A DNA stretch of 43,958 bases from Candidatus Bathycorpusculum hydrogenotrophicum. GTDB taxonomy: Archaea; Thermoproteota; Bathyarchaeia; Bathyarchaeales; Bathycorpusculaceae. Below are positions 26,634-42,393 of the stretch, in pieces. Numbering within the stretch: the first letter of the stretch is position 1; each line of letters opens with the position of its first letter. The stretch covers positions 1-43,958 of the forward strand of contig WRCX01000010.1 of NCBI GenBank assembly GCA_009783705.1. Direction: 5' to 3'. The position numbers were made by a program, and so were the translations under genes. The notes under the pieces are model-generated. The model ran no database searches and was not told the origin of the DNA. It was given only the letters and a program-made list of their open reading frames with translations.

Positions 26634-27998
26634 ATGAAACATTTTAAAAACCCCCTCTGGAGAGAACAAGTAACCAAAGTAATCCACCAAATCCAAGAAA
26701 ACGACATAAAATTTGTCAGGCTCCAATTCACCGATATAAACGGTTTTCTCAAAAACTTGGCCGTTAGCGCCAAAAACATTGAAAGCATCTTTGAAAACGG
26801 CCAATCCTTTGACGGCTCCTCCATAACCGGCTACCGCCCAGTCGAAGAATCCGATATGAACCTCTACCCCGACCCCTTCACCTTTGCCATCCTACCATGG
26901 CGACCCAAAGAAAAAGCCTCCGCCCGACTCATCTGCGACGTCTACACACCTCAAAACAAACGCTTCGAAGGCGACCCACGCTACATTCTCGAGCGCGCCA
27001 TCGAAAAAGCAACCAACGCCGGCTACACCTTCATCTGCGCACCCGAACTAGAATTTTTCATCGTAAAAGAAAGCGAAACAGGCGGCCTACCCACCCCCAT
27101 CGACCTAGCCGGCTACTTCGACGCCCACCCAGGAGACGTCACCGACGATCTGCGCCGAGAAATCGCCGACTACGCCGAAGCATTTGGCATAGACATAGAA
27201 ATCAGCCACCATGAAGTCGCCCTAGGACAAAACGAAATCGACTTCAAATACGGCGAAGCCCTTGAAACCGCCGACCGCGCCATAACCCTAAAAATGTGCG
27301 GCAAAGTCGTAGCAGCCCGCAACGGCTACATCACCACCTACATGCCCAAACCCTTCCAAGGCATCAACGGCAGCGGCATGCACATACACCAAAGCCTATG
27401 GAACAAAGACTACACCCAAAACCTCTTCTACGCAGAAGACACAAAAAACGACTGCCTCTCCGAACTCGCACGCAACTACATCGGCGGACAACTAATCCAC
27501 GGACGCAAAATAGCCGCTGTTCTCAACAGCTGGCCCAACAGCTAAAAACGCCTCGTCCCCGGATACGAAGCCCCCGTCTACATAGCATGGGCACACAAAA
27601 ACCGAAGCCCCCTCATACGCGTCCCCAACTTTGGCGGCAGAAAAACAGCCGCCCGATGCGAAATCCGTTGCCCCGACGGCGCAGGCAACCCTTATCTTCA
27701 ATTCGCAGTACTCCTAGCCGCCGGCTTAGACGGTATTAAAAACAAAACCGACCCCGGCAACCCCGTTGAATTAAACGTCTACCACATGAGCTACGAAGAA
27801 CGCAAACAAAGGGGCATCATATCACTGCCAGAGAACCTCAAAGAAGCCCTCGACGAACTCGAAACCAGCGAACTGATGCGCGAAACACTAGGCGAAGTCG
27901 CCTTCGAAAACTTTTTACGCGAAAAACACCGCGAATGGGACCTCTACCGCACCCAAGTCACCGAATGGGAAGTCAACCGCTACATCAAACGCCTCTAA
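26634..27998 (+). pseudogene. Second glutamine synthetase, interrupted by one in-frame TAA
   Basis: The frame from ATG 26634 encodes 303 residues and stops at TAA 27543-27545, but the same frame continues without further fault to 27998. Before the stop are the beta-grasp (SFDGSSITGYRPVEESDM), CAPELEFFIV, SHHEVALGQNEID and NGSGMHIHQSLW; after it come KRLVPGYEAPVYIAWAHKNRSPLIRVP, EIRCPDGAGNPY and a helical C-terminus. The stop replaces the Tyr of the conserved NSYKRL motif, one base from TAC or TAT. A truncated protein would lack the arginines and glutamate of the nucleotide and glutamate site. Joined, it would be 454 residues. Third positions favour C, unlike the intact copy. Alternatives are a sequencing error or readthrough. 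AGGAG precedes the ATG by six bases. Confidence 0.9.
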
Positions 27999-33419: not shown

Positions 33420-34910
33420 ATGTGTGCATATTATAGTTTCAAAAATTGGCAATCCACCACAAATGCACAGCTAAGGATACACTCGAAGTCTTGCCTCATA
33501 TATTTGACTGCCATAATCATAACAGTTATCGTTTTTAACACCTCATTTGCTGCCCTTACCACAGCCACAACCCCCACAGCAATTTCAACACTGCCCGCCA
33601 TTGGCTCATCTGATGAAACAAATACTCCAACACCTCTCTGGAACTACACAACAGACAGCAGAGTCGGAACATATGATACAAGGGCGGGTATGGTTTATAC
33701 TTCTCCGATTATTGTTCAGGGGATTCTTTATTTTGCCTCTGATGAGGGTTATGTCTATGCATTAAACGCTGCCAGCGGACCAAAAATATGGTCGACTTAT
33801 AAGGAGGGCCATTTACCGCATACGGGTGCCTCAAAGTTCCCAATAGTTTATGACAACAAAATTTTCCTAAATGGATATAGGGAAATGTATGCTCTAGACG
33901 CAAAGAGCGGTGCCATAATTTGGGAAACAATTGTAAGCCCTGGAACAACCAATAAGGTCATGGCACCTCCAGTTGTTGCAAATGGTACTTTATATATCGG
34001 TTATGAACATAGCTTTTATGCTCTAGATAGTTTTACAGGCGATATTCTTTGGATCTATGGTGTTGCTGATGTTGCTCCATCACCATTGGTTGTTGGTGAT
34101 GTTGTTTATGCGGGGTCATCTAACAAAGTTTTTGCTTTAGATGCCCAAGACATTCGAGGTGACCGTGAAATTTGGACTTATACAGTAGGATCTAAGAATA
34201 TAGATAGGGAGTCTTGTGTGTCGTCTTTTGTGTTTGGTGATGGAGTGCTTTATTTTTGTGCGGGGGATGGTAATGCGTATGCTCTTGAGGCTGACAGCGG
34301 CCAAAAAATTTGGAGCTACACCTACGCTTCTCGTCTGCCGCGCCATTATATTTCCTCGTCATCATTTCTTATAGATCCTTCTGCTCCCTCAGCGCCTATT
34401 CTTAGAGATGGGTTAATTTATATGGGTTCAAATACGGGTGAGGTTTATGCGTTAAATGCATCTGATGGGACAAAACTTTGGAACTCCACCATTGGTGCGG
34501 GGCGGTTGTCGGCACCGGCACTTTATAGTGATGTTTTATATGTTGGCTCCTCTGATGGTAATCTCTATGCCCTAAATGCTGCCAACGGCTTTGAACTATG
34601 GACTTACCCTGTTTCGTCGCCTATTTCTTGGGATTACTCTTCATGGGGTGTTGGGGGTGGTGTTGGTTCGCCTGTTGTTTGTGATGGGGTTTTGTATGTG
34701 GGTGGTGGAGATGGTGTTTATGCCTTAGAGGTTTCTCTACCAATAGATCAACCTCCCGGGGTTTCTCCACCATCTGTTCAATCCCCTTTGACACCTATTT
34801 CGCTAATTTTTGTAATATTGATAATTATGGGGGCTATAGCTATAGTTACGGTCTGTTGGTTACGGTCTGTATCCGTTAAGAACACAGAGCGCCAAAGTTG
34901 TAGCCGTTAA
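33420..34910 (+). CDS. PQQ-type beta-propeller surface protein with C-terminal anchor
   Basis: An exported protein of 496 residues: signal segment about 24-48, propeller, then a membrane helix (about 458-480) and a polar tail. The repeats are of the PQQ-enzyme/BamB type, each with a (V/L)YALNAxxGxxxWxY element: VYALNAASGPKIWSTY, MYALDAKSGAIIWETI, FYALDSFTGDILWIYG, VFALDAQ..., AYALEADSGQKIWSYT, VYALNASDGTKLWNST, LYALNAANGFELWTYP and a last VYALEV. Eight blades are likely. The residues needed for PQQ binding cannot be seen with certainty, so binding of a cofactor is not claimed. The end of this gene overlaps the end of the convergent CitG-like gene by 51 bases. Confidence 0.9.
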   Translation: MCAYYSFKNWQSTTNAQLRIHSKSCLIYLTAIIITVIVFNTSFAALTTATTPTAISTLPAIGSSDETNTPTPLWNYTTDSRVGTYDTRAGMVYTSPIIVQGILYFASDEGYVYALNAASGPKIWSTYKEGHLPHTGASKFPIVYDNKIFLNGYREMYALDAKSGAIIWETIVSPGTTNKVMAPPVVANGTLYIGYEHSFYALDSFTGDILWIYGVADVAPSPLVVGDVVYAGSSNKVFALDAQDIRGDREIWTYTVGSKNIDRESCVSSFVFGDGVLYFCAGDGNAYALEADSGQKIWSYTYASRLPRHYISSSSFLIDPSAPSAPILRDGLIYMGSNTGEVYALNASDGTKLWNSTIGAGRLSAPALYSDVLYVGSSDGNLYALNAANGFELWTYPVSSPISWDYSSWGVGGGVGSPVVCDGVLYVGGGDGVYALEVSLPIDQPPGVSPPSVQSPLTPISLIFVILIIMGAIAIVTVCWLRSVSVKNTERQSCSR

Positions 34911-35825
34911 ATCTGCAGTGGTGCCCGGGTTACAGGTATTTCCACTGTTGCGGAGTTTTTTATCAAATTCTGCGAGGCTTTCTCTACCCTCGGGGGTTTC
35001 TAAGCCGCCTATTTCTAGGCTGGTTTGGGCATCTTTGGAGATTTCTTGAGCTTTGGGTTTACCCATTTTGCGAGCAACAAATGTATCTGGACGTTCAGCG
35101 AGAATTTTTAGGAAGGTATGAACAACTGCGGTGTTGAGTGGTTTGTTTCTGAGTTGTTCTGTTAGATAGGGATAGGCTAAATCAAAAGTTATGGGGTAAT
35201 TGTTGACCCATTCATAGCAGATATCATCATAGGCGGCGGCGAGTTTAAACACCTCAAACAAACCCACATTCTCTTCTATGAGCCGTTTTTTGGAATCTGT
35301 TTGGGTAACATCCAGATCCGGTGCGCCGCCTAACCCGCTGGGACATGCAATATCGATTGCTTCATAGAGATGAACCGCATCCCACGCCGATGACGCCCTA
35401 ACCACCAAATCAAGATTTCGCCGCAGAACCGAAAAATCAAAACAAAACCTCTGCTTTGTTGGTGTCATACCCGCGGCGGTTGCAAGCGGCACAAACAGCA
35501 TCACCGTACCCAAAATAGTGTTTCCACCTCGTTGCCACATTGTAACATCTTCTGAACAAGTCTTGATTAACTCACCTATACCCAGCCTTTCAAGGTTTAG
35601 TTGTCCCTCAGCAACCATAGCTCCCCGAGAAGCCGCTTCTTGCAAACTCGGTCCAGCCGCAACCGCTGATGCCAAAAAATGTTCCACCCGGGTTTTCTCA
35701 AAGCTGGCAGTGAAACTGACGTTACCGGGTTTTTGCACACTGACTTCAAGCATCATCGCAAGTTGAAGACATTTGGCGATGTGCTGCGCTTTTTGGAGGC
35801 GGAGGAGGTCGCTCATTTGTTGCAC
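34860..35825 (-). CDS. CitG-like triphosphoribosyl-dephospho-CoA synthase family protein
   Basis: A 321-residue all-helical protein of PF01874 (CitG/MdcB). Landmarks: CLQLAMMLEVSVQKPGNVSF (the family's EV..KPGNV motif), EHFLASAVAAGPSLQEAA, GGNTILGTVMLFVPLATAAG, and NPGTTADLTATTLALCVL at the end (the GTTADL motif). CitG joins ATP and dephospho-CoA to give the precursor of the citrate lyase or malonate decarboxylase prosthetic group. Archaeal members are frequent where those lyases are absent, so the real product may differ. GTG 35825 is chosen: a TATA element centred at 35853 lies 28 bases upstream, giving a leaderless message; ATG 35816 is an alternative. It diverges from a nucleotidyltransferase gene that shares this element. 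Confidence 0.85.
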   Translation of the reverse strand: MQQMSDLLRLQKAQHIAKCLQLAMMLEVSVQKPGNVSFTASFEKTRVEHFLASAVAAGPSLQEAASRGAMVAEGQLNLERLGIGELIKTCSEDVTMWQRGGNTILGTVMLFVPLATAAGMTPTKQRFCFDFSVLRRNLDLVVRASSAWDAVHLYEAIDIACPSGLGGAPDLDVTQTDSKKRLIEENVGLFEVFKLAAAYDDICYEWVNNYPITFDLAYPYLTEQLRNKPLNTAVVHTFLKILAERPDTFVARKMGKPKAQEISKDAQTSLEIGGLETPEGRESLAEFDKKLRNSGNTCNPGTTADLTATTLALCVLNGYRP

Positions 35826-35847
35826 TCAGAGAAGGACGCCAAAGAAG

Positions 35848-35858
35848 CTTTATTAAAG
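35848..35858. promoter_or_regulatory. Symmetric TATA element CTTTATTAAAG shared by divergent genes
   Basis: CTTTA and TAAAG form a perfect palindrome around one T. Its centre is 28 bases from the GTG of the CitG-like gene on one side and 38 bases from the ATG of the nucleotidyltransferase gene on the other, so one TATA box may serve both directions. On the right side the transcript would start near AAGGATACATC, which carries the ribosome-binding site. Confidence 0.5.
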
Positions 35859-35890
35859 TATCCAAAACTTTAGCACAGCAAGGATACATC

Positions 35891-36907
35891 ATGAGGCCCC
35901 GTGAAGGCGACTTAATCAAAACCCAAAGCGGCGTAGTTTTCGACGTAAAGGGTACAACGCACCCCCCAGACAAAATCATAGCATTCCCCCGATTCATACC
36001 CTTCACACAGGGCACAAGAAAAGGTAAAGACCAACTCTACGGCAAAGTCTACAGCCTAGATGAGCGATTCAACTACCTAAAACAAAACCATCCTGACCTC
36101 ATCGTTTTTGATAGCGTTTTTGGGGAAACCCTCTGTGAAGTCTCCCTCAACCACATCATTGAGCACTACCAACCCACAGAAAAACTAACCGAACTACGAA
36201 ATGCAAAAAACCTCTCGGATCTTGAAGAAAAAGCCCTAAACTTGGCTGAGGAATTAAAAAATAATGCCAATATCCCCTGGAGTAGTATAGGTATCTCTGG
36301 TTCGATAATGGCTGCCCTAACCACCCCAGCCTCTGATATCGACCCCATCGTTTATGGCACAGAAAACAGCCAAAAAGCCTACCTCACACTCCAACAACTC
36401 CAAAAAACACCCAGCTCAGGTTTTAAACCATACACAACAACTGAGCTCCAAACCCTCTATGACTTTCGTTCCAAAGACACCCATATGAGTTTTAGTGATT
36501 TCTCAGTTGTGGAGTCCCGTAAGGCCTTTCAAGGTATGTATCAAGGCGTCGACTACTTTATCCGTTTTATAAAAGAGCCAAACGAAACCTCCCAACAATA
36601 CGGTGATATCTGCTACCAAAACAGCGGATACAGTAAAATTTATTCTACCATCACTGATGCCCAAGACGCCCTCTACACCCCCTGTACCTACAAACTTGAC
36701 AGTGTCCAAGTTCTTGAGTGTTCTCAGATGACACCGATCGAGGAAGTGGTTTCTTTCCGTGGTCGATTCTGTATGCAAGCTGAGATAGGTGAGAAAATTG
36801 AGGCTCAGGGAAAAATTGAGCGTGTAATTAATAAAAAAAGCGGCAAAGAACATTACCGCTTGATTTTAGGAAATAAACCCCAAGACTACATGATACTTTT
36901 GCGTTAA
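35891..36907 (+). CDS. Predicted nucleotidyltransferase, paralogue 1 (COG1665-like)
   Basis: A 338-residue protein with an N-terminal domain opening REGDLIKTQSGVVFDVKG-THPPDKIIAF, a helical middle, and a Pol-beta-type nucleotidyltransferase core: IGISGSIMAALTTPASDIDPIVYG, with Gly137-Ser138 and the metal aspartates Asp149 and Asp151. The C-terminal part (about 255-338) is strand-rich and ends in a probable OB-like domain (RGRFCMQAEIGEKIEAQGKIERV...HYRLILG). The substrate is unknown. Start ATG 35891 with AAGGAT six bases upstream. It shares a promoter element with the CitG-like gene; its end overlaps the end of paralogue 2 by four bases. Confidence 0.8.
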   Translation: MRPREGDLIKTQSGVVFDVKGTTHPPDKIIAFPRFIPFTQGTRKGKDQLYGKVYSLDERFNYLKQNHPDLIVFDSVFGETLCEVSLNHIIEHYQPTEKLTELRNAKNLSDLEEKALNLAEELKNNANIPWSSIGISGSIMAALTTPASDIDPIVYGTENSQKAYLTLQQLQKTPSSGFKPYTTTELQTLYDFRSKDTHMSFSDFSVVESRKAFQGMYQGVDYFIRFIKEPNETSQQYGDICYQNSGYSKIYSTITDAQDALYTPCTYKLDSVQVLECSQMTPIEEVVSFRGRFCMQAEIGEKIEAQGKIERVINKKSGKEHYRLILGNKPQDYMILLR

Positions 36908-37980
36908 CTATGCAGGGCTCTTAGTACCTGTTCATAGTAGCGGGAACAATAAGTTAGTGTAACCTGCAAATAGTTGCCCTTTAAAGATGCTACCTTCTCA
37001 AGATTGCCTTCCACTATGATTGTTTCGTCACGCTGTACTTGTTGGCGGAACTCTTCCATGTAACTAAATATACGAATAGCCTCTATGGCTTCTTTGGGTC
37101 CACTTAGAACCTCTAAGGGTTCAATGCCATAAACCGATGGAATAAAGGGTGCATCATTATCAGCTGTCACGCGGGCTTTGAGTCTAACCCAGCCTCTTTG
37201 AGTGATCTTTGTATCGGGGTCGTATTCGTTTCTGATTTCCTCCCAAGCTTTCACCGGTTCAAATTCTGCTTTGATAATTCTGCCGCTATGGGCTCTGTCA
37301 TCGTAGAAACCATAAATCATCTTGCGACGTTGGTGCCAAACAAAGTCTGGGATCGTAAAGTCTCTAAATAACCATCGTTTACCTGACATGACCTCTTCTG
37401 ATGTAAATTCATTGCTAAGTCCTGAGCTGGGATCTGCGTAGAGTTGGGCCATTGTCTGTACAATTTTTTGGTTTTGTGCTTTGCCATAAATTGTAAAGTC
37501 AATATCAGAATATTTTGGATGATGGAAATCATGTAGCATTGAACCAAACACGCCAAAGCTCATCTTAGAAACTCCGGATTTGTTTGAGACAATATCTAGT
37601 ACGCGCTCCATTGCCGACAATAGCTGATCGGTGGGGCCTTTTTTTAGCAGTTCTTGTAGTCGAGGTTGGGGTTGGCGTACTTTTCCAATGAGTTTCTCTG
37701 GAACCCCGACGATTTTAAGACCAAGCATTTCCTGATTAACTAGGTACTGGGGATACTTTTTGGTGATAAGTTTTAGGCCTTCGTCGTTGTAGAATTTATA
37801 AAACAGCTCATTTTTGCCCTCCCGCGGTGCTCTGGGATCTGTTGAGTTAAAGATTTTCGAGTTGGCATATTCCGCATCGCAGATATAGCTGGTTTGGGGG
37901 TGGTTGTATCCAAATACGCGGAAAATGATGCCTTCCTCGGTTTGGATGGCGTCGCGATCACGCAGGTTTAGATCGGCCAT
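36904..37980 (-). CDS. Predicted nucleotidyltransferase, paralogue 2 (COG1665-like)
   Basis: A protein of 358 residues with the same plan as its neighbours: N-terminal [32 protein letters not shown], Pol-beta core [26 protein letters not shown] with Gly146-Ser147 and Asp159, Asp161, and a C-terminal strand-rich part ([14 protein letters not shown]...[13 protein letters not shown]...[25 protein letters not shown]). An extra insertion lies between GS and DID compared with paralogue 1. Substrate unknown. Its ATG lies 13 bases inside the end of paralogue 3, so the two are translated from one message. Confidence 0.8.
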
Positions 37981-39008
37981 ATGTATTCTTCTTCTGAGGT
38001 AGCTGTGCCCACAACAACTTGATAGAAAACTGTACCGTCACGGTTGGATTGGACTTTCTCAAGGGTACCTGCAACTTTGATTTGCTGTCCGGTTCGAGCG
38101 ACGTTTCTATAGCAGCCAATGTTGGCGGTGACTTGGAGGGGAATTTTATCTAGGTCCACTTCTGATTGGACATCTTGAGGTTTGTACTGTGTGATTTTGT
38201 AGACTGCTGGGCGATACATTGTTTCTGTATCATCACAAACAGTTGCGGTGAACCGTACCGGTGCTAATGCTGTGTAGGTATAGTCGCCGTATTTACTCTT
38301 AATTTCCTCTGCTTTTTTGGTAGCATTGTACATCCAGATTTTACCATCATGCTTACCAACAAATCGACGCGCTGCTTCAATACGATTGCCCGCAATGTAG
38401 GATAAGGTACCGTGATTAACAAGTGTTTGTAGTGTTTGTTCAACTTGGCGGAAATTCTCTGAACCATAAACCACAAAATCAATGTCACTTTCCGGCGCAT
38501 GCATATCCAAGGCGATGGAGCCATGGATACCTAAATCCGAGTAGGGCACACCTGATTCTTTATGAACCAGATCAATGAGTTTTATGGCATGTGCTTGGAG
38601 ACTATCCGGGTTTTTGAGGTTCTGCAACCAGACCAAACGATCTTTGGGTACAAATACCTGCTCGATTCTATCTAAGGGTGATGTTATGAGTTCTTTACCT
38701 CGCGTTTGATCAAAAAACAAATAGTTTGCGAAATTTCCTCGAAACGCACCTATAAAGGTTTGATAATTTTTAGCGGTGTAGAGCTTCTCTGCACGAAATA
38801 ACTGACTGGTCAGCGGATTTGAACCAAATTTCCATGTGCGTTGCAACATCTCAACATTGAAGAGATCTTTGTATTTAGCGGGGATGTATTTGAGAAATGC
38901 AAAGACTCTATCGCTTGGATGCTCATAGCCAAACGTGTTCATGATAAACCCATCTTGGGTGACAAAGGTGTCACCATCGGCAGGAACCCAAATAGTTGCT
39001 TCTTCCAT
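37968..39008 (-). CDS. Predicted nucleotidyltransferase, paralogue 3 (COG1665-like)
   Basis: A protein of 346 residues: N-terminal [34 protein letters not shown], core [24 protein letters not shown] with Gly163-Ser164 and Asp175, Asp177, and a strand-rich C-terminus ([24 protein letters not shown]...[26 protein letters not shown]). The final domain in all three paralogues shares the G-x-L-E-K-V / G-K-I-E-R-V element, suggesting a common OB-type end. It is first in a two-gene unit with paralogue 2 and lies 122 bases upstream of the end of nrdG on the same strand. Confidence 0.8.
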
Positions 39009-39130: not shown

Positions 39131-39820
39131 TTAGATTCTTAGGATGATTTTTTCTGTGTAGGGTGCGATTATTTTGGCGATTTCCTCGATTTTTTCGGGT
39201 ACATAGGGTTTGAGTGTTTGGTAGCGTTTATCAAGAGTATCTTCGGCGATAAACTGTTGAAGTGCATAAATTTTAGTGCCTTTTATCATTTCCCCGATTG
39301 CCTGTGCATCTTGTTCTGTTAGGAGCTCGGGTATGTCGGTTGTGCGAAACTCGTAGGGAACCTTGCCCCTCTTGAGTATCTCCATTGAGTGCATCAGGTT
39401 CTTTGTGTCAGAGGCACCCAGCAGATGATACTTTTCTTGGCAGGTTTTCACATCCATTGCCACATAATCCACATGTCCCAGACATTCCTCGAGTACGTCG
39501 GGGAAAAAGCCATTGGTATCTAGCTTGACTGAGAATCCGTGTTCTTTGAGTTTGGCAAGGAACTTGGGGAGTTCTCGGTGCATGCAGGGTTCGCCTCCGC
39601 TTATAACAACTGCGTCGACATGTTTTTTACGGCTCTCAAGTATTGAGAGTGCTGCGCCTTCTTGGAGAAACGGTGGTTGAGGATCGAGGGCAATTTTGTG
39701 GTTGTGGCAAAAGGGGCAACGCAGGTTGCACCCCGGTGTGAACAGTACTGATGCTACCTTATCGGGATAATCCAGCAAGCTGGTTTTTTGTAATCCGCTA
39801 AACTTCACTGAGTTGCTCAC
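39131..39820 (-). CDS. nrdG: Anaerobic ribonucleotide reductase activating protein
   Basis: A radical SAM activase of 229 residues. It opens with VKFSGLQKTSLLDYPDKVASVLFTPGCNLRCPFCHN, where the three cysteines of CNLRCPFC hold the 4Fe-4S cluster, followed by DAVVISGGEPCMH. It generates the glycyl radical on NrdD. The GTG at 39820 follows the stop codon of nrdD directly, with no gap, so translation is likely coupled. The product size is larger than the short enterobacterial NrdG, as in archaea and many anaerobes. Confidence 0.93.
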   Translation of the reverse strand: MSNSVKFSGLQKTSLLDYPDKVASVLFTPGCNLRCPFCHNHKIALDPQPPFLQEGAALSILESRKKHVDAVVISGGEPCMHRELPKFLAKLKEHGFSVKLDTNGFFPDVLEECLGHVDYVAMDVKTCQEKYHLLGASDTKNLMHSMEILKRGKVPYEFRTTDIPELLTEQDAQAIGEMIKGTKIYALQQFIAEDTLDKRYQTLKPYVPEKIEEIAKIIAPYTEKIILRI

Positions 39821-41947
39821 CTAAACTGTTAGGGGGGCTGATGCCACCACTGTTGATCTGTCAAAGGTTTTGCGTATGGCAAATTCAGCTTGTTTCCCAT
39901 CATTCCATTGGTCAACTGGGCGAAGATATCCTACAACGCGGCTATAAACTTCATTTTTTGCTCCACAGACCAGACAGGTTTTGTGTTCACCTGTGGTATA
40001 GCCGTGACTTGGGCAGATGCTAAAGGTTGGCGTTAGGGTGAAGTAGGGTAGTTTTGTATTCCAGCTGACTTTTTTAACTAATTCGGCTGCAGATTTCCAG
40101 GTGGGTAGGCGTTCTCCTATGAAGATGTGGAAGTTTGTGCCGCCTGTGTAGAGTGTTTGGAGTGTCTCTTGATGTTCGAGGGCTTCAAAGAGATCACCTG
40201 CAAAGTCTACGGGTAGTTGTGAGGAGTTGGTGTAGAAGGGTTCGGCGTGTTCTGCAATTATGTGTTTTTGGTTGGCAAATATGATGTCTCGGTAGCGTTT
40301 TCTGTCGAGGCGGGCTAGGCGGTAGGCGGTGCCTTCTGCGGGGGTGGCTTCGAGGTTGTAGATGTTGCCTGTTTCTTCTTGATAGTCTGCTATTTGTTTG
40401 CGCATGTAGTTTAGGATTTTAACTGCAAATGCTTGGCCGTCTTTTGAGGCGATGTTTTGTCCTAGGAGGTTTATGAGGGCTTCGTTTATGCCTACTATGC
40501 CGATTGTTGAGAAGTGGTTTTTCCAGTATTTGTCAAATCCTGCTTTGACGTGTCGGAGGTAGCGTTTGGAGTAGGGGTAGAGGCCGTTGTCGGTGAAGGC
40601 TTCGAGGACTTTGCGTTTGAGTTCAAGGCTGGCTTTGGCGGTTTCCATGAGGGTGTCTAGTTTTTCGAAGAATTCGTCTTCGTTTTTGGAGAGGTAGCCT
40701 ATGCGGGGGATGTTTAGGGTGACTACACCGATGCTTCCTGTTAGTGGGTTGGCTCCAAAGAAGCCTCCGCCGCGTTTGCGGAGTTCTCGGTTGTCGATGC
40801 GGAGCCGGCAGCACATGCTTCTGACATCTTCGGGGTTCATGTCGCTGTTTACAAAGTTGCTAAAGTTGGGGACGCCGTATTTGGCTGTGACTTCAAAGAT
40901 GGCTTGTGAGGTGGGTGAGTCCCAGTCGAAGTCTTTGGTGATGTTGTAGGTGGGGATGGGGAAGGTGAAGACTCTGCCTTTTGCGTCGCCTTGTTTCATG
41001 CCTTCTGCAAAGGATAGGTTTAGCATTTCTAGTTCTTTGGAAAAGTCTCCGTAGGTGTCGGTTGTGACTTTGCCGTTGTAGATGACGGCTTCGTTTTTCA
41101 TAAAGTCGGGTACGGTTAGGTCTAGGGTGAGGTTGGTGAAGGGTGCTTGGAAGCCGACTCGGGTGGGGACGTTCATGTTGAAGAAGAATTCTTGGAGTGC
41201 CTGATCGACGTCTTTTTGGGTTAGGTTGTCGTATCGTATGAAGGGTGCTAGGTAGGTGTCAAAGTTGCTAAATGCTTGTGCGCCTGCGGCTTCTCCTTGG
41301 AGGGTGTAGAAAAAGTTGACGATTTGTCCTAGTGCGGTGCGGAAGTGTTTAGCGGGTTTGCTCTCGATTTTGCCATGCACTCCGCCAAAGCCTGAGAGCA
41401 ACAGATCGTTTATGTCCCATCCAACGCAGTAGGGTCCTAGGACGCCTAGGTCGTGGATGTGGATGTCTCCTGAGAAGTGAGATGCGGCGATGTTTTCGGG
41501 GTAGATGCGTGCGATCCAGTATTTGGCTATGACGGCTGAGGAGAGGTAGTTGTTTAGGCCTTGGAGTGAGTAGCTCATGTTGCTGTTTTCTTTGACGCGC
41601 CAGTCCTCAACTTCGAGGTATTGATCTACCAAGTCTGAGGAGCTTAGTAGCGCGGCTAGTTCGCGCATGTCGTTGTGTTGTTTGCGGTAGAGGATGTAGG
41701 CTTTTGCGGTGGAGGCGTGTCCGTTTTCGATGAGGCGCTTTTCGACGAGATCTTGGACTTCCTCAACGGTTGGGACGCCATCATCCCCATAGGTTCGGTT
41801 GAGTTCAGCTACGACTTCGTCGCTGATTCTTTTAGCTTGTTCTTTATCTTTGCCGCCTACTGCTTTTACAGCTTTATAGATGGCTTGGGTGATGCGTTCT
41901 TGATCGAATGGTTCTAATTTACTGTCACGTTTTAATACGAATTTCAT
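39821..41947 (-). CDS. nrdD: Anaerobic ribonucleoside-triphosphate reductase
   Basis: A class III ribonucleotide reductase of 708 residues that makes deoxynucleotides without oxygen. The N-terminal ATP-cone (LKRDSKLEPFDQERITQAIYKAV) provides allosteric control. The glycyl radical site is Gly673 in YSRVVGYLRPVDQWNDGKQAEFAIRK near the C-terminus, just after a zinc site (CPSHGYTTGEHKTCLVC). The barrel has the active-site Cys in DVRSMCCRLRIDNRELRKRGGGFFGANPLTGSIGVVTLN. Its ATG overlaps the end of nrdR by four bases (ATGA type). It forms an operon nrdR-nrdD-nrdG. A strict anaerobic lifestyle is implied, though other classes of reductase may exist outside the window. Confidence 0.97.
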   Translation of the reverse strand: MKFVLKRDSKLEPFDQERITQAIYKAVKAVGGKDKEQAKRISDEVVAELNRTYGDDGVPTVEEVQDLVEKRLIENGHASTAKAYILYRKQHNDMRELAALLSSSDLVDQYLEVEDWRVKENSNMSYSLQGLNNYLSSAVIAKYWIARIYPENIAASHFSGDIHIHDLGVLGPYCVGWDINDLLLSGFGGVHGKIESKPAKHFRTALGQIVNFFYTLQGEAAGAQAFSNFDTYLAPFIRYDNLTQKDVDQALQEFFFNMNVPTRVGFQAPFTNLTLDLTVPDFMKNEAVIYNGKVTTDTYGDFSKELEMLNLSFAEGMKQGDAKGRVFTFPIPTYNITKDFDWDSPTSQAIFEVTAKYGVPNFSNFVNSDMNPEDVRSMCCRLRIDNRELRKRGGGFFGANPLTGSIGVVTLNIPRIGYLSKNEDEFFEKLDTLMETAKASLELKRKVLEAFTDNGLYPYSKRYLRHVKAGFDKYWKNHFSTIGIVGINEALINLLGQNIASKDGQAFAVKILNYMRKQIADYQEETGNIYNLEATPAEGTAYRLARLDRKRYRDIIFANQKHIIAEHAEPFYTNSSQLPVDFAGDLFEALEHQETLQTLYTGGTNFHIFIGERLPTWKSAAELVKKVSWNTKLPYFTLTPTFSICPSHGYTTGEHKTCLVCGAKNEVYSRVVGYLRPVDQWNDGKQAEFAIRKTFDRSTVVASAPLTV

Positions 41948-42393
41948 TTTTTCTTCACTTCCGAAATTACTCGCCTGAAATCTTCAGGCTCTTCAAATTG
42001 TTTGTAAACCGAAGCAAACCGGATGTAGGCAATCCGGTCGACTTTTTTTATGTACTGCATAATCAAGTCGCCGATTTCCTCTGATGCGACTTCCTGAGCG
42101 CCTTTTAGCATTAAGTCCTGGCGGACGTGATCTGCTAACTCGTTTATCTGTACCATGGTGACGGGGCGTTTTTCGAAGGCTTTTTGGAGTCCTCGAATTA
42201 TTTTGTTAACATCAAAGCGCTGTAATTCACCGTTTTTTTTACGAACCATGATTTCGACGGTTTCGAGATATTCGTAGGTGGTATAGCGTTTACCACAGGT
42301 GGTGCATTCTTTACGTCTGCGGGTGGTGTTCTCTGCAGAGTCCCGTGTTTCGAGGGTTTTTGAATTTTCCGAGTTGCAGTAGGGGCATCTCAT
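41944..42393 (-). CDS. nrdR: Ribonucleotide reductase regulator NrdR
   Basis: A 149-residue repressor with an N-terminal zinc ribbon (MRCPYCNSENSKTLETR...RRRKECTTCGKRYTTYEY: CxxC and CxxC) and an ATP-cone domain (VRKKNGELQRFDVNKIIRGLQKAFEKRP). NrdR reads dATP/ATP state through the ATP-cone and represses reductase genes. It is mainly bacterial and found in part of the archaea, so its location in front of nrdD in an archaeon is notable; the three genes overlap or touch. The length and the order of domains are standard. Inverted half-sites TAGTGT and ACACTA near its promoter may be its own operator. Confidence 0.95.
   Translation of the reverse strand: MRCPYCNSENSKTLETRDSAENTTRRRKECTTCGKRYTTYEYLETVEIMVRKKNGELQRFDVNKIIRGLQKAFEKRPVTMVQINELADHVRQDLMLKGAQEVASEEIGDLIMQYIKKVDRIAYIRFASVYKQFEEPEDFRRVISEVKKK

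Follow-up and report, generated by a model that had tools for sequence, protein, structure and literature searches.

The window analysed here, a stretch of 43,958 nucleotides of Candidatus Bathycorpusculum hydrogenotrophicum (phylum Thermoproteota; contig WRCX01000010.1, positions 1 to 43,958 of the forward strand), was found to contain a CitG-family gene followed by three paralogous genes of the nucleotidyltransferase (NT) fold, NT_B, NT_A, and NT_C, which are considered here as candidate enzymes for the tail of methanopterin. All four genes were intact in the window, and the features of the locus were as follows.

34860..35825, (-) strand: CitG-family gene (PF01874), 321 aa with a GTG start; full-length PF01874 match, E=1.4e-67
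35848..35858, no strand: palindromic TATA-like element CTTTATTAAAG, found by script in the divergent spacer between CitG and NT_B
35891..36907, (+) strand: NT_B, nucleotidyltransferase-fold paralogue, 338 aa; homologous to NT_A and NT_C
36904..37980, (-) strand: NT_A, nucleotidyltransferase-fold paralogue, 358 aa; NTP_transf_2 above cut-off, placed by the tree and the position table
37968..39008, (-) strand: NT_C, nucleotidyltransferase-fold paralogue, 346 aa; NTP_transf_2 above cut-off, and homology

An alternative start in the CitG gene, an in-frame ATG that begins at 35816, would give a protein of 318 aa. The NT_B and NT_A genes were found to end tail to tail with an overlap of 4 bp, and the same-strand pair NT_C and NT_A shares 13 bp. 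Between CitG and NT_B, the spacer contained one palindromic element, CTTTATTAAAG, and its TTATTAA core was kept in 12 of 13 genus-level sequences, so that a single bidirectional promoter for the two genes is plausible. A CitG-like gene diverging from an NT gene over a symmetric TATA element had been described in the original prediction, made from the sequence of the window alone, and was found as described; of the span given for it, 35816 to 39008, the NT genes lie inside whereas CitG lies almost wholly to the left of 35816. The genes for NrdR, the anaerobic ribonucleotide reductase NrdD, and the radical-SAM activase NrdG (window 39131-42393) were found to precede NT_C directly on its own strand, and a common transcript of the Nrd genes with NT_C and NT_A is possible.

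The window CitG protein was found to match PF01874 with 228.8 bits against a cut-off of 27, over model positions 1-283 of 284. The columns E32, K38, G40, G114, D225, P276, G277, A280, and D281 were invariant with E. coli CitG included, and the core motif positions E, K-P-G, G-x-N-T, D-T, and P-G-x-x-A-D were common to the window protein and E. coli CitG. The protein remained below the NCBIfam equivalog cut-offs for CitG and MdcB (31-58 bits against 272-477). No citrate lyase or malonate decarboxylase gene was found in the open reading frame lists or by the Pfam scan of the flanking genes, in agreement with the earlier statement that neither a lyase nor a carrier is present at the locus. The protein thus resembles the triphosphoribosyl-dephospho-CoA synthases CitG and MdcB (PF01874) in its full-length match and its conserved core, whereas it differs from them in scoring far under the equivalog cut-offs, in standing without lyase or decarboxylase genes, and in the linkage to methanopterin genes that CitG shows elsewhere among archaea.

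The two further paralogues foreseen in the original prediction, NT_A and NT_C, were confirmed as full-length genes, and the three NT proteins were found to be 25-26% identical in each pairwise comparison over nearly the full length (E 4e-23 to 7e-37). All three contained the nucleotidyltransferase signature G-x-x-G-S followed by S-D-I-D, and the pol-beta-type G-S followed by D-x-D was invariant in 84 of 84 aligned NT sequences. The Pfam NTP_transf_2 cut-off was passed by NT_A and NT_C and was not passed by NT_B alone, though NT_B is homologous to both. Searches for the NT family gave neither a Pfam or NCBIfam model covering the whole protein nor a relative in the PDB, and hhalign detected no similarity between NT and E. 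coli CitX (probability 0.4%). NT_B matched PRK01293, the malonate decarboxylase holo-ACP synthase model, at a sub-threshold E=0.063. AlphaFold models built from an alignment of the three window paralogues only were of low confidence (predicted local distance difference test scores of 45 and 58), and the better of them gave weak OB-fold matches at the C-terminus in Foldseek, none at E<=0.001.

In the tree, the NT sequences of the window's class were found to form four groups, A, B, C, and D, the last of which is absent from the window, and NT_B was the group most often adjoining CitG. The single-copy NT of a second archaeal phylum (methanogens, Archaeoglobi) was placed as sister to NT_A, and profile comparison of the second-phylum and window-type NT (100% probability, E=2e-53, 301 columns) indicates that they are one family. 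The presumed third metal-ligand position, equated between the groups by alignment position, contained D in 20 of 20 second-phylum NT and E in 10 of 11 NT_A, and in the other groups F-I-R (NT_B), Y-N (NT_C), and S-I-H (NT_D). NT_A appears to be the likeliest direct counterpart of the second-phylum NT.

Within the genus, the CitG gene was found within 1.5 kb of an NT gene, by coordinates, in 27 of the 29 genomes with both, which is therefore far from a chance neighbourhood. Among 299 genomes of the phylum, 145 contained both CitG and NT, four CitG alone, 12 NT alone, and 138 neither (Fisher p = 1e-64, a value that is overstated because the species are related), gene presence and absence being called from incomplete assemblies. 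An NT gene was present within 3.5 kb of CitG in 18 of the 34 phylum families in which a CitG locus was read. Within the order, four families at least (f5, f6, f7, and f9) were found to contain some members that have lost both genes next to others that keep them. A conserved neighbourhood of the two genes in relatives, the absence of which had been named beforehand as a possible refutation, was thus present, and these results support CitG and NT as a conserved functional pair.

The neighbourhoods in other lineages were found to contain methanopterin-biosynthesis genes. Locus L035 contained, in a stretch of 8.7 kb, a gene for a dihydropteroate-synthase-like (DHPS-like) protein, which passed the cut-off of TIGR00284 with 357 bits, and further MptG, PTPS, DUF1464, DmrX, MptE, DUF447, CitG, and NT_B. 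Locus L105 contained the DHPS-like gene, MptD, MptA, MptG, DmrX, DUF1464, DUF447, MptE, and CitG, and locus L102 contained MptG, DUF447, MptE, the DHPS-like gene, MptA (316 bits, above cut-off), and MptD (PF04038) followed by NT_B and NT_D. The order NT_B, DUF447, DUF1464, MptD, DmrX, DHPS-like gene, MptG, MptE, and MptA was found in locus L119, and NT_D, NT_B, CitG, DUF447, MptA, and MptE in locus L089. These five loci come from several families of the phylum and differ in gene order, and the linkage therefore outlives rearrangement. In family f30, which we take to be Sulfolobaceae-like, CitG, NT, and the kinase-like family DUF1464 form one overlapping operon (L088:8318-10903); DUF1464 and DUF447 are candidates for further methanopterin steps.

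Of the 99 genomes with the DHPS-like gene, 98 were found to carry CitG and/or NT, and the gene for Ftr, the formylmethanofuran:tetrahydromethanopterin formyltransferase, adjoins NT in nine loci (L034, L038, L039, L042, L043, L046, L049, L110, and L118). The known methanopterin enzymes (MptA, MptD, MptE, MptG, DmrX, and the DHPS-like TIGR00284) resemble CitG and NT in clustering and phyletic distribution, and differ from them in their steps, namely the formation of the pterin and of the aryl-ribosyl part and the last reduction, with no assignment of any of them to the alpha-ribosyl-phosphate-hydroxyglutarate tail. The proposal that the locus serves an unknown protein prosthetic group or an RNA modification is not supported by these neighbourhoods; since they are methanopterin-biosynthesis clusters, the acceptor of the CitG/NT product is most likely a small-molecule coenzyme. 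Ftr was present in two copies in most relatives.

In the second phylum, CitG was found in 266 of 276 genomes, including a group without Ftr, and NT in 205 of 276, nearly always as a single copy. Both NT and Ftr were present in 204 of these genomes, NT only in one, Ftr only in 14, and neither in 57 (15 discordant). The CitG loci read commonly contained the methanogenesis-marker-9/MJ0144 protein followed by CitG and DUF447, and often DmrX or the DHPS-like gene as well; loci L200, L201, L213, and L217 showed linkage to genes of the methanopterin pathway, and the dihydromethanopterin reductase DmrX near CitG scored 323 bits, above cut-off. In Archaeoglobi, the loci of which were found with a CitG query taken from the sequence printed in the alignment to PDB 3h9p, CitG overlaps DUF447 and exactly one NT is present per genome. 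In locus L215 (genome G427), where Ftr and NT are absent, CitG adjoins an MJ0144-like protein and CofD.

On the protein families, the active-site signatures, the co-occurrence and co-loss, and the linkage in two phyla, CitG and NT very probably belong to the methanopterin biosynthesis pathway. In bacteria, the product of CitG is a ribosyl 5''-triphosphate glycoside of dephospho-CoA, the 5''-phosphate of which is subsequently attached by CitX or MdcG to the hydroxyl of a serine. Methanopterin contains an alpha-ribofuranosyl group on ribitol, with its 5''-phosphate in a phosphodiester to 2-hydroxyglutarate. The alpha-ribosyl linkage and the 5''-phosphodiester are common to the two, and by this chemical parallel CitG and NT could make the tail. 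It is fairly probable that they carry out late steps of (tetrahydro)methanopterin synthesis as a relay of two steps, for which the substrates, the step order, and the use of ATP are proposed here. In the first step CitG would displace adenine from ATP, or pyrophosphate from phosphoribosyl pyrophosphate (PRPP), so that the ribitol 5-OH of the dihydropterin-aminophenyl-ribitol intermediate would carry an alpha-ribofuranosyl 5''-(tri)phosphate in glycosidic linkage. In the second step the 5''-triphosphate would serve NT as a donor resembling a nucleoside triphosphate, and the phosphoribosyl-pterin would be passed to the hydroxyl group of (S)-2-hydroxyglutarate with release of pyrophosphate, which would give the methanopterin phosphodiester tail. 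This exact chemistry, drawn by analogy, we regard as moderately likely.

The CitG/CitX analogy of the original prediction therefore stands in part, since a CitG-type donor with nucleotidyltransferase-type chemistry is still the best mechanistic idea, whereas homology of NT to CitX was not found. The proposed NT chemistry resembles that of the phosphoribosyl-dephospho-CoA transferases CitX and MdcG (MdcG being a member of the nucleotidyltransferase superfamily) in coupling a 5''-triphosphate donor to a hydroxyl while pyrophosphate is lost; NT differs from them in being about 340 aa long, in having an additional N-terminal region and, in the low-confidence model, an OB-like C-terminal part, and in its proposed small-molecule acceptor. 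CofC and CofD, which build the F420 tail, are alike in forming, from a nucleotide-type donor, a tail in which a hydroxy acid is joined by a phosphodiester, but their families are unrelated to CitG and NT, and CofD is separate and lies near CitG in some loci. The three or four NT paralogues of the class are probably subfunctionalised for different terminal acids or as hetero-oligomers, and NT_B, NT_C, and NT_D may act on other substrates or within such hetero-oligomers.

Methylotrophic bacteria use dephospho-tetrahydromethanopterin (dephospho-H4MPT), which is without this tail. The dephospho form of H4MPT is named in the literature (PMC6193120). In a 2011 gene inventory of Methanothermobacter (PMC3087415), the proteins given for methanopterin were MptA, MptB, and RFAP synthase together with some seven that were still unknown, which leaves room for CitG and NT. 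No assignment of the tail enzymes was found in the open-access sources read, and such a proposal may have appeared before in a subscription journal; no open-access paper was found to contain both triphosphoribosyl-dephospho-CoA and methanopterin, nor any to contain COG1665. A wider claim, for which we judge the chances to be even, is that CitG and NT are the missing methanopterin tail enzymes across archaea through a CitG/CitX-type triphosphoribosyl relay on a small-molecule coenzyme, that two distant prosthetic-group pathways have a common origin, and that the four NT subgroups (DxD plus E, R, N, or H) make several methanopterin variants. Methanopterin carries one-carbon units both in methanogenesis and in carbon fixation by archaea. 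If the proposal is true, such enzymes would close the gap in tail synthesis, account for the mistaken annotation, in many archaea, of a CitG gene as related to citrate lyase, and provide methanogen-specific targets.

Several observations weigh against the assignment to the methanopterin tail. CitG and NT of the own genome were not found beside MptG, which is present together with the DHPS-like gene and DUF447 on another contig (L106). Many order-level relatives contained CitG, NT, and Ftr without MptG above cut-off, so that salvage or another enzyme would be needed there. NT_B, NT_C, and NT_D contained no obvious third metal-binding carboxylate. In the second phylum, the genomes without Ftr and NT retained CitG, which is therefore not confined to Ftr users; they are probably haloarchaea, since the Haloferax volcanii control contained CitG and no Ftr. 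A further 14 genomes (G336, G346, G356, G364, G370, G376, G382, and seven others) contained Ftr and CitG with no NT detected; CitG was clustered with DUF447, DmrX, and the DHPS-like gene in two of the three loci read from such genomes (L200 and L201), and NT may have been lost, replaced, or missed in them. Cell-extract work by White in 1996 is reported to have employed PRPP, in place of ATP, for the ribosyl step.

Two direct dependences of the pair were tried and rejected. A simple dependence on MptG does not agree with the many relatives that are without it, and the test on the set of relatives was marginal (p=0.053); dependence on Ftr alone does not agree with the Sulfolobus acidocaldarius control, which contained CitG and MptG hits and no Ftr.

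The same pathway could also be divided otherwise, CitG adding ribose 5-phosphate from PRPP or ATP and NT being a nucleotidyltransferase in the strict sense, by which the 5''-phosphate would be activated as a nucleotide before 2-hydroxyglutarate joins (or else a phospho-hydroxyglutarate, in the manner of CofC in F420 synthesis). The classic signature of NT, the D-x-D plus D kept by the second-phylum enzyme, and the requirement for ATP with hydroxyglutarate in methanogen extracts agree with this division; however, an extra transfer step or enzyme would be required, and the partnership with a CitG family, the known product of which is a triphosphate, would not be accounted for, so that we consider it unlikely.

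Service to another co-occurring coenzyme, such as one with an F420- or methanofuran-type tail, with the clustering reflecting general one-carbon metabolism, appears improbable. It would fit the presence of CofD near CitG in L200, L201, and L215, the presence of CitG without Ftr in some genomes, and the nine loci in which NT adjoins Ftr, but the densest clusters are those of MptA, MptD, MptE, the DHPS-like gene, MptG, and DmrX, and the Sulfolobus acidocaldarius control argues against a methanofuran role.

A nucleotide-derived prosthetic group made by CitG and attached by NT to a protein carrier or RNA, as the family analogy with CitG/CitX and MdcB/MdcG and the weak OB-fold-like match at the NT C-terminus (low-confidence model) might suggest, is very improbable in view of the consistent methanopterin-gene linkage, the lack of NT-CitX similarity, and the absence of genes for citrate lyase or malonate decarboxylase from the neighbours that were checked. 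Its particular form, a group on a carrier as in citrate lyase, was rejected because lyase and carrier genes are absent and CitX is unrelated. Inherited gene order of no functional meaning, for which the relatedness of the sampled species (the counts not being independent) and the lack of an NT gene beside CitG, in the stretch fetched, in 16 of the 34 families read would speak, is strongly disfavoured by the differing gene orders and orientations, the four or more coordinated losses within the order, and the co-occurrence in two phyla.

An ECF-transporter S-component-like gene was found to adjoin CitG or NT_B in at least 11 order-level loci, mostly in genomes without MptG above cut-off, and it adjoins the DHPS-like gene in L103 and L117 (one genus, without MptG) and in L107. 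Instances beside CitG/NT_B or the DHPS-like gene are L032:5410-6171, L034:8080-8826, L043:8723, L107:6291-7049, L103:3227-4039, and L117:10105. Such organisms may import a methanopterin precursor and add the tail themselves.

In the own genome, the DHPS-like gene (L106:6690-9780, contig C2) was found to match in two pieces in different frames, which points to a frameshift or an assembly error, and a FolB-FolK fusion is present near it. A possible frameshift was also found in the window at 26634-27739, where the second glutamine synthetase gene stops early at 303 aa, followed by the presence of an overlapping open reading frame in another frame.

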